Source: Hyphomicrobium sp. (GTDB lineage: Bacteria; Pseudomonadota; Alphaproteobacteria; Rhizobiales; Hyphomicrobiaceae). Taken from it: a stretch of DNA of 64,000 nucleotides. Below are positions 48,435 to 56,365 of this stretch, in pieces. Each line of letters starts with the position of its first letter. The first letter of the stretch is position 1. The notes beneath the pieces are model-generated. The model worked only from the letters and a program-made list of their open reading frames with translations, did not search any database and was not told the DNA's origin. The stretch lies in contig JASBTM010000008.1 in NCBI GenBank assembly GCA_030148425.1, forward strand, positions 434,001-498,000, written 5' to 3'. The position numbers were made by a program, and so were the translations under genes.

Positions 48435-48800
48435 TCAGCCCGCGGGCGCGAATCCCGCTGGCGTGGCAGGTTCGATGTTGACGCTCTCGCCGCAACCGCA
48501 AGCGCTCTTCTGGTTCGGGTTATTGAAGACGAACTGCGAGGACAGTTTGTCCGTCTTGTAGTCCATCTCCGTGCCGAGCAGGTACATGATCGCGGCCGCA
48601 TCGATGAGCACGACTGCGCCTTTTTCCTCGATCACCTCGTCGAACTTCCCGATCTCTTCGGCCCAGGTCATGGTGTATTCCATGCCCGCGCAGCCGCCCT
48701 TCTTGATGCCGATCTTAAGCGCCTTGACGCCCGGCTTCTGCGCAATAAGAGCAGAAATGCGCGCCGCTGCGGCATCCGTCAACGTCATGACTTTTGGCAT
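48435..48800 (-). CDS. sufA: A-type iron-sulfur carrier protein
   Basis: 121 residues from ATG 48800 (ATG 48803 and longer starts exist; no start has a strong ribosome-binding site). The three cluster-binding cysteines of SufA/IscA are present: Cys37 in Gly-Gly-Cys-Ala-Gly, and Cys101 and Cys103 in Ala-Cys-Gly-Cys-Gly. It carries clusters from the SufBCD scaffold to apo-enzymes. It lies downstream of sufT with an intervening 92 bases, near the end of the operon. Confidence 0.9.
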   Translation of the reverse strand: MPKVMTLTDAAAARISALIAQKPGVKALKIGIKKGGCAGMEYTMTWAEEIGKFDEVIEEKGAVVLIDAAAIMYLLGTEMDYKTDKLSSQFVFNNPNQKSACGCGESVNIEPATPAGFAPAG

Positions 48801-48892
48801 CATTCTAAGCGAGGGCACATCGGCCTCCGTGAGTTCGTCGAGTGGTTTCGAAGCAAGTATATGGGCATTCGCCGTCCAAAACGATACCCTCG

Positions 48893-49348
48893 TCAAAACA
48901 TGCCGACAGCAAGTCGCGCTTCGTCCGACATCCGGCTTTGATCCCACGGCGGATCGAACACGATGCTGACTTTCGTGCCTGCAACGCCCGGAACGGCATT
49001 GACGGCATTTTCAACCCAGATCGGCATCTCGCCCGCGACCGGGCAGCCCGGCGCGGTGAGAGTCATATTGATCGCGACATTGCGGTTGTCGTCGACCTCC
49101 ACCTTGTAGATCAATCCAAGCTCGTAGATGTCAGCCGGGATTTCGGGGTCGTAAACCGTTTTCAAGGCCGCGACGATGTCGTTCGTCAGCCTCTCGATTT
49201 CTTCCGGCGGAAGAGACGAAGCATTGCTAACGTCCTTCGCTGCCGGATCCGGAGCCGCGCCGCTGTCAGCAGGCAACGTCGACGGCGCATCGAGCGCTTC
49301 GACGGCCGCCTTCAGGGCTTCCCGGTCTTCAATTTGCTTCCCGTCCAT
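48893..49348 (-). CDS. sufT: SUF system Fe-S assembly protein SufT (MIP18/PaaD-like)
   Basis: 151 residues. An Ala/Pro-rich N-terminal 45 residues precede a DUF59 domain with Val-Tyr-Asp-Pro-Glu-Ile-Pro, Asp-Ile-Tyr-Glu-Leu-Gly-Leu-Ile-Tyr and the conserved Cys in Thr-Ala-Pro-Gly-Cys-Pro. SufT proteins help mature Fe-S enzymes, especially under high demand. It is encoded directly after sufS with a 12-base gap. Confidence 0.9.
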   Translation of the reverse strand: MDGKQIEDREALKAAVEALDAPSTLPADSGAAPDPAAKDVSNASSLPPEEIERLTNDIVAALKTVYDPEIPADIYELGLIYKVEVDDNRNVAINMTLTAPGCPVAGEMPIWVENAVNAVPGVAGTKVSIVFDPPWDQSRMSDEARLAVGMF

Positions 49349-49360
49349 GGCGGAAGCTCC

Positions 49361-50644
49361 TTACGTGAAAAGGTCATGAGCCTTGGTGAGCGCGGTTACC
49401 AGCGCATCAGCCTCGGCTTTTGTGTTGTACAACGCGAAAGACGCGCGGCAGGTTGCGCTGACGCCTAGGCGCTCCATTAACGGCTGCGCACAGTGATGTC
49501 CCGCCCTGATTGCGACGCCAGACCGGTCGATGATCGTCGACACATCGTGCGGGTGCAGCCCGTCGATTGTAAACGAGAAGATCGCCCCTTTGCCGGGCGC
49601 TGTGCCGTAGAGCTTGAGCCACGGCAATTCCGCGAGCCGCTCGGCCGCGTAGGCGCCAAGCTCAGCTTCGTAAGCCGAAATCTTTTCGCGGCCGACCTGC
49701 ATCATGTAGTTGAGCGCGGCGCCCAAACCCACCGCCTCGACGATGGCGGGTGTGCCCGCCTCGAACCTGTGCGGCGGCTCGTTATACGTGACGTTATCGA
49801 CCGTCACGCTCTCGATCATATCTCCACCGCCCTCATAGGGCGGCATCGACGCAAGAAGTTGACGTTTGCCGTAAAGCACGCCGATACCCGACGGGCCGTA
49901 GGTTTTATGTCCCGTGAAGACGTAAAAATCCGCATCGAGATCGCGCACGTCGACGCCCATGTGGACAGCCGCCTGGCTGCCGTCGATCAGCACCGGAACG
50001 CCCTTCGCATGCGCAATCCGAATGATCTCCTTCACCGGATTGATCGTGCCCAGCACATTCGACATATGCGTAACGGCGACGATCTTAGTGCGCTTAGTGA
50101 TCAAGCTGTCGAGCTTGTCGATCATCAATTCGCCGCGGTCGGTCATCGGCGCCCACTTCAGCACCGCGCCGTTGCGCGCGCGCAGGAAATGCCACGGCAC
50201 GATATTGGCGTGATGCTCCATGATCGTGATGACGATCTCGTCGCCCTCGCCAATTCTCGGTTCGCCGAACGAACGCGCGACCAGATTGATCGCGCTCGTT
50301 GCATTGCGCGTGAAAATGATCTCGTCCGCGTGCTCGGCGTTGAGGAAGCGGCGCACCGTCTCGCGCGCGGCCTCGTACTTGTCGGTTGCCGTATTCGAAA
50401 GAAAATGCAGCCCGCGATGCACATTCGCATATTCGAAGCGATAAGCGTGATCCATCGCTTCGATGACAGAGAGCGGTTTCTGCGCCGACGCACCGTTATC
50501 GAGATAGACAAGCGGCTTGTCGTTCACTTCCCGAAAAAGGATCGGAAAGTCGGCACGGATGCGTTCGACGTCGTAAGGCGCACCCGTCAGGCCCGCTTGC
50601 GATGCCGCACTTCTCGCGACGGCAATGCTCGTGTCATGTCCCAT
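49361..50644 (-). CDS. sufS: Cysteine desulfurase SufS
   Basis: 427 residues from ATG 50644. It is a group II PLP enzyme with the cofactor lysine Lys247 in Thr-Gly-His-Lys-Thr-Tyr-Gly-Pro and catalytic Cys385 in Gly-His-His-Cys-Ala-Gln-Pro. It removes sulfur from cysteine for SufB, usually with help from a SufE-type acceptor that is not encoded here. It follows sufD by five bases. The operon thus encodes two distinct desulfurases, this one and the group I type in the fusion gene. Confidence 0.96.
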   Translation of the reverse strand: MGHDTSIAVARSAASQAGLTGAPYDVERIRADFPILFREVNDKPLVYLDNGASAQKPLSVIEAMDHAYRFEYANVHRGLHFLSNTATDKYEAARETVRRFLNAEHADEIIFTRNATSAINLVARSFGEPRIGEGDEIVITIMEHHANIVPWHFLRARNGAVLKWAPMTDRGELMIDKLDSLITKRTKIVAVTHMSNVLGTINPVKEIIRIAHAKGVPVLIDGSQAAVHMGVDVRDLDADFYVFTGHKTYGPSGIGVLYGKRQLLASMPPYEGGGDMIESVTVDNVTYNEPPHRFEAGTPAIVEAVGLGAALNYMMQVGREKISAYEAELGAYAAERLAELPWLKLYGTAPGKGAIFSFTIDGLHPHDVSTIIDRSGVAIRAGHHCAQPLMERLGVSATCRASFALYNTKAEADALVTALTKAHDLFT

Positions 50645-50649
50645 GGTTC

Positions 50650-51987
50650 TTATCCGCGCACGGAGCGCCCGAGCCACTGCATGGCATATGCCGCCAGCGC
50701 GTCCCGAAGCTGCTCGTTGTCCACTTTCTCGATCGCTTCACCGATAAAGGATTCGATCATCAGCGCCCGCGCTTCCTTTTCCGGAATACCGCGCGAGCGG
50801 CAGTAGAACAGCAGGTCGGCATCGAGTTCCGCCACCGTCGTGCCGTGCCCGCAAACCACATCGTCGGCATAGATCTCGAGTTCGGGCTTGGAATCGAATT
50901 CCGCGTCTTCCGAAAGCATCAAAGCCTGAGACATCTGCTTGCCATCGGTCTTCTGCGCATCGGGCCGAACGATAATCTTGCCTTGGAACACACCGCGTCC
51001 ATGACCGTCGAGGACGCCCTTGAAGAGCTCCCGGCTCTCGCAGCGAGGCACCGCATGATCGACGACGAGAGTCGTATCGATATGCTCGGAATGGCGAGCC
51101 AAATACGCACCCGACAAATCGATCTTGCTGCCTTCGCCTTCGAAAATCACATTGAGGCCATTGCGCGCCAAACCCAGCCCCGTTGAAAACTGGAAGCTGC
51201 GATAGGTTGCATCGGCATCGAGCGTCACATCGCAATTCGACAGATGCAAAGCCTTGCCGTCATCGACCGCGACTTTGGCGTGAATGAGCATTGCGCCCTT
51301 GGCGACAGTCACCTCTGTCAGCGTGTTGAGCTGCGCATCCGCAGACGCGCCCGGCAGAACGACATGTGCTTCGATCACGTCCGCCGATGCGTTCTTACCG
51401 ACCATCAGCGAATTACGCACCGTCACCGAATGCGCATGCGCCCCGGCGCGAACGAAAACGATCATCAGCGGCTTCGCGACAGTCACGCCTTCCGCAACGG
51501 TCACGACGGCGCCATCGGTCATGAAAGCGGTATTGAGCGCTTCAACCGCGTCGCCGCCTTCCGGCGTTGTCGCGAGTGCCGCGCTAACATCCTCGGAGGC
51601 CGACGCCAAAATTTCGCCGAGAGCGGCCACCTTGAACCCTTCGGCATTAGCCAAATCGCCAAGCTCGAAACGATGATGTCCGTTGACGAACACGATCCGG
51701 TGCGCATCGACGTGGGCCAACGGCCCTAGCGCCACGATCAGTTCCGCGATCGTAATCCGCGCCGCGTCGTGAATTGCCGACGGAAAGATCTCTTTCACGT
51801 TGGCGCGAATATCCGTGTATTTCCATTCCTCGATGCGCCGATGCGGAAGCCCGAGGCCGCTGAATGCGCCAATCGCCTCGGCGCGCCTCGCCTTGACGGC
51901 TTCGCTTCCCGGCAGCTTCTCGGCGACGGCCTCGAAGTTTTCCGAGATGGCCTGCTCGGCCTTCGTTTTCATCACTGCAACGTTCAT
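50650..51987 (-). CDS. sufD: Fe-S cluster scaffold subunit SufD
   Basis: 445 residues with an N-terminal helical part (Arg-Arg-x-Glu-Glu-Trp-Lys-Tyr-Thr-Asp near residue 55) and a right-handed beta-helix core. The C-terminal helical segment includes Glu-Ile-Tyr-Ala-Asp-Asp-Val-x-Cys-Gly-His-Gly, the SufD signature with the conserved His. SufD pairs with SufB and two SufC to form the scaffold. It follows sufC by one base. Confidence 0.95.
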   Translation of the reverse strand: MNVAVMKTKAEQAISENFEAVAEKLPGSEAVKARRAEAIGAFSGLGLPHRRIEEWKYTDIRANVKEIFPSAIHDAARITIAELIVALGPLAHVDAHRIVFVNGHHRFELGDLANAEGFKVAALGEILASASEDVSAALATTPEGGDAVEALNTAFMTDGAVVTVAEGVTVAKPLMIVFVRAGAHAHSVTVRNSLMVGKNASADVIEAHVVLPGASADAQLNTLTEVTVAKGAMLIHAKVAVDDGKALHLSNCDVTLDADATYRSFQFSTGLGLARNGLNVIFEGEGSKIDLSGAYLARHSEHIDTTLVVDHAVPRCESRELFKGVLDGHGRGVFQGKIIVRPDAQKTDGKQMSQALMLSEDAEFDSKPELEIYADDVVCGHGTTVAELDADLLFYCRSRGIPEKEARALMIESFIGEAIEKVDNEQLRDALAAYAMQWLGRSVRG

Positions 51988-51988
51988 T

Positions 51989-52744
51989 TTACGCAGCCTT
52001 GTGAGTGTATTCGGCGTAGCCCGACTTCTCGAGTTCGAGCGCCAGTTCCTTGCCGCCCGTTTTCTGAATGCGTCCGTCTGCGAGCACGTGCACCTTGTCG
52101 GGCACGATGTAGTTCAGCAGCCGCTGATAATGCGTGATGACGACGAACGCTCGATCCTTGTCCCGGAGCGCGTTCACGCCTTCGGACACGATCCGGAGCG
52201 CGTCGATATCGAGACCGGAATCGGTTTCATCGAGCACGCACAGCGTCGGCTCCAACAGCGCCATTTGCAGAATCTCCGAGCGCTTCTTCTCGCCGCCCGA
52301 GAATCCGACGTTGACCGGCCGCTTCAGCATCTCGATATCGATGTTGAGCTTCTGGCCTTTCTCCTTCACGAGCTTCATGAAGGCAGGCGTGGTGAGTTCC
52401 GCTTCGCCGCGCTTCTTGCGCACTGAGTTCAGCGCCGTGCGCAGGAACGTCAGCCCCGCGACGCCGGGAATTTCCATCGGATATTGGAACGCGAGAAACA
52501 CACCTTTCGCGGCGCGCTCATCCGGCTCCATGTCGATGATCGACTCGCCATTCCAAAGAATGTCGCCGTCAGTGACTTCATAGCCGTCGCGACCCGCAAG
52601 CACATAAGCGAGCGTCGATTTACCCGAACCGTTCGGGCCCATGATGGCGTGCACTTCACCCTTCGGGACATTCAGGGACAGCCCCTTGAGGATCATCCGA
52701 TCCTCATCCGCGAGCTTCACGTGCAAGTTTTTAATTTCAAGCAT
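51989..52744 (-). CDS. sufC: Fe-S assembly ATPase SufC
   Basis: 251 residues, a soluble ABC ATPase. Walker A Gly-Pro-Asn-Gly-Ser-Gly-Lys42-Ser, signature Phe-Ser-Gly-Gly-Glu-Lys-Lys-Arg near 148, and Asp-Glu-Thr-Asp-Ser-Gly-Leu-Asp after Walker B match SufC exactly. ATP binding drives the conformational change of SufB-SufD that exposes the nascent cluster site. Its ATG follows the stop of the 65-residue ORF by a single base. Confidence 0.97.
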
Positions 52745-52745
52745 T

Positions 52746-52942
52746 CTACTGACCTAATAGTTCGCTTATTTCTGTTTCGATCTCTTTTTGCCTACGGTGA
52801 ATATCCGCTAGGCGTTTTGCGTTCTCGGCTGTCGCAATCAATACTCCATCAGCAGATGTACTCTCGACGAATGACCTGTGCTCCTCCGCCACCGCAAGCT
52901 GCTTTTCGAGAAGCTGCTCTAAGTCGGATTGCTTGTCAGCCA

Positions 52943-52943
<1 letters not shown>
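52746..52943 (-). CDS. Novel 65-residue coiled-coil protein between sufB and sufC
   Basis: ATG 52943 overlaps the sufB stop (ATGA) and TAG 52746 ends one base before the sufC ATG, so the frame fits precisely between the two genes. The 65 residues are highly charged and helical with heptad-like Leu/Ile/Ala spacing (about residues 8-28 and 45-63), suggesting a short antiparallel coiled coil. A hand count gives about 49% G+C here against visibly richer neighbours, hinting at recent acquisition or relaxed codon use. No Cys or metal motif is present. In most suf operons sufC directly follows sufB. I recognise no family. Confidence 0.7.
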
Positions 52944-54412
<1,469 letters not shown>

Positions 54413-54467: not shown

Positions 54468-56063
54468 TCAAGCGGCGAGCGCCGGCTCGCCTACAATTGT
54501 CTTCCATGCAGCGAGAAATGCCGCGATGTCGTCGTCATTCGTCATCGGCCCTAGGCTGACGCGGATCGTGCTTGCGGCGATATCAGGGCCGAAGCCCATC
54601 GCTTCGAGAACGTGGCTCGCGCCGACCTTACCGGAGGAGCATGCCGAGCCCGCGCTCACTGCAATGCCCGCAAGATCGAGCCGGATGACGAGCGTCTCGG
54701 CGAGCTTTCCCGGCAGCGCCACCGCCGTCGTGTTCTGAAGCCGTGGAGCGCCTTCGCCGATGATCACGGCATTCGGGCTGGCGTGCTTGATCGCCGTTTC
54801 GAGTCCGTCGCGCAGAACGGCAATCGCGCTCGCCTCTTCCTGGTCGCGATGAGCGGCTTCGGCAGCAACCCCAAATCCGGCAATCGCCGGAAGGTTCTCG
54901 GTTCCGGCCCGGCGCCGGCGCTCCTGCCCGCCGCCTCTGATCATCGGCACGAGATCGACATGATCGCGAATGACAAGCGCGCCAACACCCTTCGGGCCGC
55001 CGAACTTGTGTGCCGAAATTGACAGCGTATCGACATCGAGCGCCGCGAAATCGATGGCCAATCGGCCTGCCGCCTGTACCGCATCGACGTGCATTTTCAC
55101 GTCGTTGGCGCGCGCGAGTTCGGCGATCGCTGCGACAGGCTGAATGATGCCCGTTTCGTTATTGGCCAGCTGCACGGCGATGACCGCCGGACGTGCGAAG
55201 GCCCCGGACGCCAGCATCGCAGCAAGTTCATTCACATTTACGATGCCGTCCCGGCCGATTGGCAACATGACAAGCGCAGCACCCGAAGCACGCGCAGGTG
55301 CGAGAACGGAATCGTGCTCGATGCCGCTGGTGAAAATCGTCGCCCAAGGCTGCGACAGTGCCCAGGCATTGGCCTCACTGGCCCCGCTCGTGAAAACAAT
55401 CTCGGACGGCTTTGCTCCAACGAGCCGCGCGACGCTCTCCCGCGCGCGCTCAATTACGGCCCGCGCGCGGCGGCCCTCGCTATGAACCGACGACGGATTG
55501 CCGATGATATCGAGCGCTTCGACCATCGCGGACTTGGCTTCTGGCCGGAGCGGCGCCGTCGCGTTGAAATCGAGATAGGTTCGCCGCACGGGCGCACGCG
55601 GCGCCGCGGAAACTGGTCCAGAAACAGCACCGATTGCGCGAACCGGATTTGCTGAATACTTGCCGCCCGCAATCACGTCGGCCAGGCTCACCGAAGTCAG
55701 AAATTTTCCAGTGGAATCGCTGAGTGCACTCCACAAACCGTGTGTCACACACGGCGTCGCGACCGAGCAGCGTGGGTCATTGTGGGAGCAGCGCGTAAAG
55801 CGCGTATCCTCTTCAACGGCCTCCATGATTGCGGCGATGGAAACGTCTTTTGCGGGCTGCGTAAGCCGATAGCCTCCCGAGCGGCCTCGGGCGCTTTCAA
55901 CGAGCCCAGCGCGCCGCAGCGGTACGAAAAGCTGTTCCAGATAGGAAAGCGGCAGGCTCTGGCGATCTGCCACCACAGACAGGGGGATCGCCCCATCTTC
56001 GGCGTGTCCCGCAAGGTCAGCCATGGCCATGACCGCGTAGCGGCCTTTGGTCGTAAGTTCCAC
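54468..56063 (-). CDS. Fused Rrf2/IscR-type regulator and cysteine desulfurase (IscS/NifS-like)
   Basis: One uninterrupted 531-codon frame from GTG 56063. Residues 1-135 are an Rrf2 winged-helix regulator, with the Gly-Gly-Tyr-x-Leu wing and Cys92, Cys99 and Cys105 in the Cx6Cx5C spacing that holds an Fe-S cluster in IscR/RirA proteins. An Ala/Pro/Val-rich linker (about 136-160) leads to a complete group I cysteine desulfurase (161-531): His250 and Asp327 at the cofactor, PLP lysine Lys353 in Ser-Ala-His-Lys-Phe-Gly-Gly-Pro-Lys-Gly, and catalytic Cys475 in Ala-Gly-Ser-Ala-Cys-Ser-Ser-Gly-Lys. The usual arrangement is separate iscR and iscS genes. It heads the suf operon, so it may both repress that operon and supply its sulfur. 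A sequencing error deleting a stop is the main alternative. Confidence 0.92.
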   Translation of the reverse strand: MELTTKGRYAVMAMADLAGHAEDGAIPLSVVADRQSLPLSYLEQLFVPLRRAGLVESARGRSGGYRLTQPAKDVSIAAIMEAVEEDTRFTRCSHNDPRCSVATPCVTHGLWSALSDSTGKFLTSVSLADVIAGGKYSANPVRAIGAVSGPVSAAPRAPVRRTYLDFNATAPLRPEAKSAMVEALDIIGNPSSVHSEGRRARAVIERARESVARLVGAKPSEIVFTSGASEANAWALSQPWATIFTSGIEHDSVLAPARASGAALVMLPIGRDGIVNVNELAAMLASGAFARPAVIAVQLANNETGIIQPVAAIAELARANDVKMHVDAVQAAGRLAIDFAALDVDTLSISAHKFGGPKGVGALVIRDHVDLVPMIRGGGQERRRRAGTENLPAIAGFGVAAEAAHRDQEEASAIAVLRDGLETAIKHASPNAVIIGEGAPRLQNTTAVALPGKLAETLVIRLDLAGIAVSAGSACSSGKVGASHVLEAMGFGPDIAASTIRVSLGPMTNDDDIAAFLAAWKTIVGEPALAA

Positions 56064-56071
56064 GTCTCAAT

Positions 56072-56149
56072 CCCCGGACTGTCGTCGCCTCAAGTGGCGG
56101 CGGAATCCAACCAGCGCATCCTTAGCTTGCATCCGGCACCCCGGACTGT
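56072..56149. promoter_or_regulatory. Direct 11-base repeats upstream of the fused regulator gene
   Basis: CCCCGGACTGT occurs exactly at 56072-56082 and 56139-56149, eight and 75 bases upstream of the GTG on the minus strand. Being between the regulator start and any upstream promoter, the pair is a candidate operator, but it does not match a known IscR or iron-responsive box that I recall. No clear -35/-10 was found. The rest of the 302-base divergent gap (56064-56365) holds no gene. Confidence 0.4.
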
Positions 56150-56365
56150 GCTAAGAGACCCGCCCTACAGCGGCTACTACGTTTACCAACGAGAGCCCCT
56201 ACATTTCGAACGGTTCTAAAGTTATGGAAATCCTGAGCGCTGGAGTCAAGGATTGAGAACACGAACCACAAGGATTTGAATGCCAAAAGGCCGCAGCCCG
56301 GCCTGCCATCTCCGCCCAGCGCCTAATTCCGTCCCAAAAATCACGAGCGAGACCGAGATCTTCCG

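Follow-up and report, generated by a model that had tools for sequence, protein, structure and literature searches.

In textbooks IscR and IscS are separate proteins, and Escherichia coli separates their expression during iron stress. The locus considered here, in a 64,000-nucleotide stretch of Hyphomicrobium DNA (the window), raises the question of whether regulator and sulfur donor can be one and the same chain, an earlier note having read both in a single open frame at the head of a suf operon.

The fused gene and the operon that it heads

Pfam analysis bears out the single frame: Rrf2 (residues 3-132, 120.8 bits against a cut-off of 30) and Aminotran_5 (residues 162-516, 190.4 bits against a cut-off of 21.5) are encoded together, with no stop between them. 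The coordinates given for it, 54468..56063, were right; the gene is on the minus strand, with a GTG start at 56063 and a stop at 54468-54470. It encodes a protein of 531 amino acids (54.9 kDa), in which an Rrf2/IscR-type regulator is followed by a short variable linker and a complete group I (NifS/IscS-type) cysteine desulfurase. The gene and its parts are:

54468..56063, minus strand: iscR-iscS fusion gene, a single open frame
55662..56063, minus strand: Rrf2/IscR-type DNA-binding and presumed [2Fe-2S] domain, residues 1-134 (PF02082)
55584..55661, minus strand: variable linker, residues 135-160 (in the 22 fused proteins of the genus, 11-26 residues long; pLDDT under 50 at residues 139-158)
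54471..55583, minus strand: group I (NifS/IscS-type) cysteine desulfurase domain, residues 161-531

The fused protein is a member of the Rrf2 family (TIGR00738, 120.5 bits against a cut-off of 73.3), and NCBIfam ranking places its N-terminal part with IscR and its C-terminal part with NifS/IscS. Because its score for the IscR equivalog TIGR02010 lies under the cut-off (149.7 against 207.55 bits), which is reached in none of the 22 genomes of the genus, we name the regulator half IscR-type rather than an IscR equivalog. The scores for the IscS and NifS equivalogs are likewise below their cut-offs (TIGR02006, 237.5 against 643.2 bits; TIGR03402, 334.4 against 530.75 bits), and the desulfurase half has the aminotransferase V fold, the PLP lysine and the catalytic cysteine in a mobile loop that define group I. 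Regulators of the MocR/PdxR type likewise join a winged-helix regulator to a PLP fold-type I domain. However, MocR combines a GntR helix with a class I/II aminotransferase-like sensing domain, whereas the fused protein combines Rrf2 with a complete class V desulfurase that has its catalytic cysteine; in the Pfam search of the fused protein (E<=0.001), GntR was absent and the matches were Rrf2, Aminotran_5 and a weaker overlapping Beta_elim_lyase only, which places it outside MocR/PdxR.

The reading of the active residues as intact is confirmed by comparison with the IscR and IscS reference sequences of E. coli K-12 (locus L143; structures 4HF0 and 1P3W): each residue checked for DNA contact, cluster ligation or catalysis has its counterpart there. 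Cys92, Cys98, Cys104 and His107 of E. coli IscR correspond to Cys92, Cys99, Cys105 and His108 of the fused protein, and His104, Asp180, Gln183, Lys206 and Cys328 of E. coli IscS to His250, Asp327, Gln330, Lys353 and Cys475. None of the nine varies among the 22 fused homologues, and the set of three cysteines and one histidine is kept both in these (22/22) and in the unfused family homologues examined (27/27). The window protein has five of the five DNA-contact residues (Ser40, Tyr41, Glu43, Gln44 and Arg59) that are listed for IscR in PMC11475020; among the genus members, residue 40 is either Ser or Ala. Residue 61, near the DNA-contact Arg59, is Arg in each of the family homologues examined (22 fused and 27 unfused) and Pro in 17/17 more distant homologues; judged from these alignments, the Arg61 change predates the fusion. 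Purifying selection acts on both domains, with dN/dS values of 0.042-0.132 and 0.069-0.159 (nine pairs).

In the linker between these two folded parts, Ala, Arg, Ser and Pro make up 63% of the residues, dN/dS reaches 0.91 (on few codons) and the alignment of the fused proteins holds no conserved motif; the linker is predicted to be disordered. The structure prediction is of the chain as a monomer (pTM 0.67), and the domain arrangement is not fixed by the model. Structure comparison covers the desulfurase half, which has the fold of E. coli IscS (1P3W), although the tail at the C terminus of E. coli IscS is longer; for the regulator half the comparison was at the sequence level.

As the earlier note had it, the gene stands at the head of a suf operon: sufB lies directly downstream in 22/22 fused loci, 48-63 nt from the fusion stop in each. 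In the window the operon continues with:

52943..54412, minus strand: sufB (NCBIfam SufB, 899 bits), 55 nt downstream of the fusion
51989..52744, minus strand: sufC (TIGR01978, 349 bits)
50650..51987, minus strand: sufD (TIGR01981, 269 bits)
49361..50677, minus strand: sufS, a group II desulfurase distinct from the fused one (TIGR01979, 594 bits)
48893..49348, minus strand: sufT-like SUF-associated protein (DUF59; TIGR02945, 154.5 bits)
48435..48947, minus strand: sufA-type carrier (TIGR01997, 131 bits, just under the cut-off of 136; TIGR00049, 112 bits, cut-off 59)

A small frame of about 65 amino acids, the end of a longer ORF, lies between sufB and sufC (about 52746-52943, minus strand); the hypothetical protein RSP_0439 of the Rhodobacter sphaeroides isc-suf operon is a possible counterpart.

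The iscR-iscS-suf operons of Caulobacter crescentus and R. sphaeroides have the same head, with the regulator first, then the desulfurase and the suf genes, and in both species the regulator represses its own operon (PMC11475020 and PMC4618611). The difference is that iscR and iscS are separate genes in both species, whereas in the Hyphomicrobium genus they form one chain. Caulobacter IscR is described in PMC11475020 as having a ligand set of three Cys and one His and as binding over the -35 of its own promoter. R. sphaeroides IscR uses a single cysteine, whereas the fused protein has all four ligands.

Distribution and origin of the fusion

The earlier note had proposed a search for the same fusion in related genomes, and in the genus one stop-free frame over both domains was found in 22/22 genomes examined. 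Some of these genomes are single-contig, and the fused proteins of the other members are 63-81% identical to the window protein. The window's own genome is 85.85% complete; 18/22 genus genomes have a completeness of 90% or more and a contamination of 5% or less. An artefact or lost stop in one assembly is rejected, since the fusion is uninterrupted in all 22 genomes, and dN/dS and the invariant residues reject a decayed fusion. The view that the gene is neither decayed nor mis-sequenced thus holds, with the same frame throughout and purifying selection on both domains. Because 22 genus genomes carry the single chain with its key residues, we take the fusion to be a real protein and not a sequencing error.

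In a search of 100 relatives the fused frame occurred in the 22 genus members, and elsewhere the matches were separate or stop-interrupted. Among the matches listed for the family (103 genomes), no fusion was seen in the 81 genomes outside the genus; one of the 103 had no match at the threshold, G038, G047, G101, G102, G106, G126 and G142 were among those with partial or contig-edge matches that leave the junction out of view, and in one family genome (G133) both parts lie in one frame with a TAA between them. The earlier note had named relatives with the two genes always separate as a sign against its reading; this is not so inside the genus, while separate genes were indeed seen in the family's other genera. 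Wider samples gave, among the matches listed, an uninterrupted frame across both parts in the genome of the window only (class, 385 genomes), seven fused cases, all of this genus (order, 397 genomes), and one, the window's own (phylum, 398 genomes). These samples overlap, and scoring was mostly limited to the top three candidates of each genome; with the thresholds used (1e-85, 1e-110 and 1e-90) very divergent fusions could escape. A widespread fusion is rejected, since the class, order and phylum matches listed hold no stop-free case outside the genus. A scan of named contigs, covering at least 80 loci, of which some have no Rrf2 frame near the desulfurase, gave one fused case among the matches listed, from Hyphomicrobium sp. 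RGIG5714 (L063). In the metagenome-assembled genomes labelled Hyphomicrobium at L067, L069, L089 and L114, iscR and iscS are separate, so the label Hyphomicrobium is wider than the fused genus. Both domain families and the operon were already known; the stable fusion of the two is the new part, and it is apparently undescribed, none having been found in open-licence full text.

The sister genera suggest how the fusion could have arisen. There, iscR and iscS are separate and mostly overlap, the iscS start lying over the iscR stop as ATGA, GTGA, TAATG or TGATG. Among 27 sister-genus loci with both genes, iscS is shifted by two relative to iscR in 23, stands in the third frame in three and shares the frame, with a stop, in one. 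Since the overlap is out of frame in the sisters, the fusion needed a frame-changing indel. In a desulfurase tree, which took the longest desulfurase match per locus, the 22 fused sequences form one clade with moderate support (92/56; SH-aLRT 56), and a single change of label was found in 92% of 200 bootstrap trees; the tree thus favours a single origin. A deep clade of ten sequences (L031, L033-L035, L038-L040, L064-L066) probably consists of other desulfurases, and the fused clade is unaffected by it. The linker sits where the sister genera have a variable IscR tail, and at least 11 changes of its length, all frame-preserving, are required on the topology of this tree. In the ancestor of the Hyphomicrobium genus an indel would have removed the iscR/iscS overlap and joined the genes, most simply once, and the variable C-terminal tail of IscR would have become a flexible tether.

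Elsewhere in the Proteobacteria, iscR, a stop and iscS lie in one frame in 49/92 pairs (L032-L135; the stop is TAG in 19/49), in a set ordered by joint score, a ranking biased towards pairs that share a frame. The idea that stop read-through generally links iscR and iscS is rejected: given this bias and the GGAG stretches before the start in some junctions, ordinary re-initiation suffices.

Promoter and leader

The region upstream of the fused gene contains three features:

56228..56254, minus strand: candidate IscR operator, a type-1-like inverted repeat over the -35 (TTGACT), in the 22 fused leaders and 23/27 sister leaders
56204..56220, minus strand: Irr/ICE-like box TTTAGAACnGTTCGAAA at the promoter, just downstream of the operator candidate, with similar sequence in fused and most sister leaders
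56076..56108, minus strand: 5' leader hairpin of 33 nt just upstream of the Shine-Dalgarno sequence (model R1, 20/22 genus genomes)

In the fused leaders the candidate operator follows, with variation, the pattern AATCCTTGACT-N5-GCTCAGGATT over the -35. By the E. coli consensus it resembles an IscR type-1 site, and TTTAGAACnGTTCGAAA resembles an Irr box, again by consensus. In R. sphaeroides, loss of irr raises suf gene levels (PMC3413700). In Caulobacter, the IscR site over its own -35 is described as weakly type-II-like and the type-I motif is A-rich (PMC11475020), so the assignment of the candidate to type 1 is tentative. A TTGACT or TTGATT repeat is found in 23/27 unfused sister leaders (absent from L043, L060 and L061; L058 is cut off). 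Since the promoter plan is common to the unfused relatives, the fused protein still faces the ancestral promoter. Control of suf transcription, as claimed in the earlier note, is suggested by this operator candidate of IscR type kept over the -35. A conserved leader block, CTTAGCACAGTC...GGGGTG (56137-56155, minus strand), is partly common to the sister genera.

The hairpin has the typical form GGAUU-YC-GYCGCC-ACUUGR-GGCGRC-nnn-AGUCC, of 33-34 nt, in 20/22 fused genomes; L019 and L021 lack it and were excluded from the hairpin alignments. The model found no match in 28 sister-genus loci (iscR is present in 27), and elsewhere in the 22 genus genomes, with 150 candidates per genome scored, it gave two weak partial matches only. 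No Rfam family was found in the leader, the one match listed lying elsewhere and below the family threshold. Covariation is weak: two pairs have changed on both sides, the covariation score was reached by 33/500 shuffles, and the count of paired cells by 96/500. We regard the hairpin as a lead for translational control. Such control would be of consequence, since in E. coli the uncoupling of iscR from iscS takes place between the two genes (PMC11475020), at a point that is lost here.

Possible functions of the fused chain

In each genus genome the fusion is the sole strong IscR match (128.9-158.7 bits, the next best anywhere scoring 73.7), with weaker Rrf2 matches also occurring, and in 21/22 genomes no other group I desulfurase reaches E<=1e-40. 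One genome alone of the 22 (G007) has a second group I desulfurase at this threshold, about 15 kb from one of its two SufE genes (G007:C1:3506255 and 3521506). The window's own genome also has a 741-residue frame with a SufS-like desulfurase, and a second Rrf2 gene some 4 kb away (G000:C16:182589-188378); our guess is that this frame is of the encapsulin-cargo type. E. coli IscS works with IscU, whereas the fused genus has marginal IscU family matches only (12/22 genomes, best 25.2 bits, 8/22 over the Pfam cut-off of 22). A remote scaffold is possible, since NifU_N is just over the cut-off in those eight. SufE is present in 20/22 genomes, none having been found in G012 and G013. Sulfur release by itself does not build a [2Fe-2S] cluster; with IscU matches marginal and SufE nearly always present, clusters probably come from SufBCD fed by SufS-SufE.

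We consider it probable that the locus encodes a genuine bifunctional protein, formed by joining two products of the classical alphaproteobacterial iscRS-suf operon, its IscR-type autoregulator and its group I desulfurase. The N-terminal domain, as a [2Fe-2S] dimer, would bind the operator candidate over the -35 and so repress its own promoter, and the C-terminal domain, as a PLP dimer, would move cysteine sulfur onto the loop Cys475. Judging from the known roles of IscS, this sulfur may go mostly to pathways other than SufBCD, for instance tRNA thiolation. Regulator and desulfurase would be fixed at 1:1, neither being made without the other, and the halves would be tethered with no necessary cross-talk. 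The sequence, its conservation and distribution, the operon context and the lack of a conserved internal start are observed; we infer DNA binding, cluster binding, desulfurase activity, the dimer architecture and the absence of cleavage.

Two less likely readings would return the cell to separate proteins. Were the chain cleaved in the linker, cells would contain ordinary IscR and IscS; a variable, Ala/Arg-rich stretch that is predicted to be disordered and evolves at the dN/dS given above would suit this, but its alignment lacks a conserved motif and we know of no linker processing in the Rrf2/IscR or desulfurase families, and we think cleavage quite improbable. Still further from likely is an internal start that yields free desulfurase and leaves the fused product minor. 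Such initiation is possible in 8/22 genomes, because these have an in-frame ATG/GTG near the old iscS start, no more than some 10 codons ahead of the YLD motif. However, the ancestral overlapping start is gone, three of the 22 (L006, L010 and L018) have no in-frame ATG/GTG/TTG between residues 127 and 169, and the linker length changes all preserve the frame, a constraint that would not be needed with an independent start.

The other readings leave the chain whole and differ in what joining has brought. The genes may have been joined by accident, with halves that work as before and no advantage, which is compatible with the bifunctional protein that we prefer. The domains resemble those of the unfused sisters, the promoter plan is unchanged and the usual sister arrangement is already an overlap that should couple translation; against neutrality, the fusion has been kept in 22/22 genomes across the divergence noted above, and regulator dose is now tied to enzyme dose. 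We find neutral fusion conceivable, if somewhat doubtful. The desulfurase's persulfide, its PLP/cysteine state or local sulfur could also alter the regulator's cluster occupancy or DNA binding, which would add to the preferred reading a trigger enzyme that reads sulfur supply as well as Fe-S status; the self-loading sensor proposed in the earlier note would be a version of this. MocR/PdxR and BirA, winged-helix regulators fused to PLP-fold or enzyme domains, act in a similar way. In BirA one chain represses its own pathway and catalyses a step, as proposed for the fusion, although the families are unrelated and the reaction intermediate is the corepressor in BirA. Cross-talk would fit the retention of the fused form on a short tether in all 22 genomes and its standing as the only strong IscR match and, in 21/22, the only group I desulfurase. 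Yet the hypervariable, predicted disordered linker gives no sign of a conserved interdomain interface, and sulfur alone makes no cluster, with SufS encoded in the operon and SufE in 20/22 genomes; we give cross-talk a low probability. That the desulfurase state tunes the regulator, with the genus hairpin replacing the lost intercistronic control point between iscR and iscS, is likewise unlikely; if true, the suf operon would respond to sulfur supply and Fe-S status together.

The fusion is a clean case of an overlapping gene pair becoming a fused gene. Being unable to separate the expression of IscR and IscS, the fused genus offers a natural experiment on the reasons for the usual separation of regulator and sulfur donor, and on the possibility that a desulfurase acts in cis on a sensor of Fe-S status.
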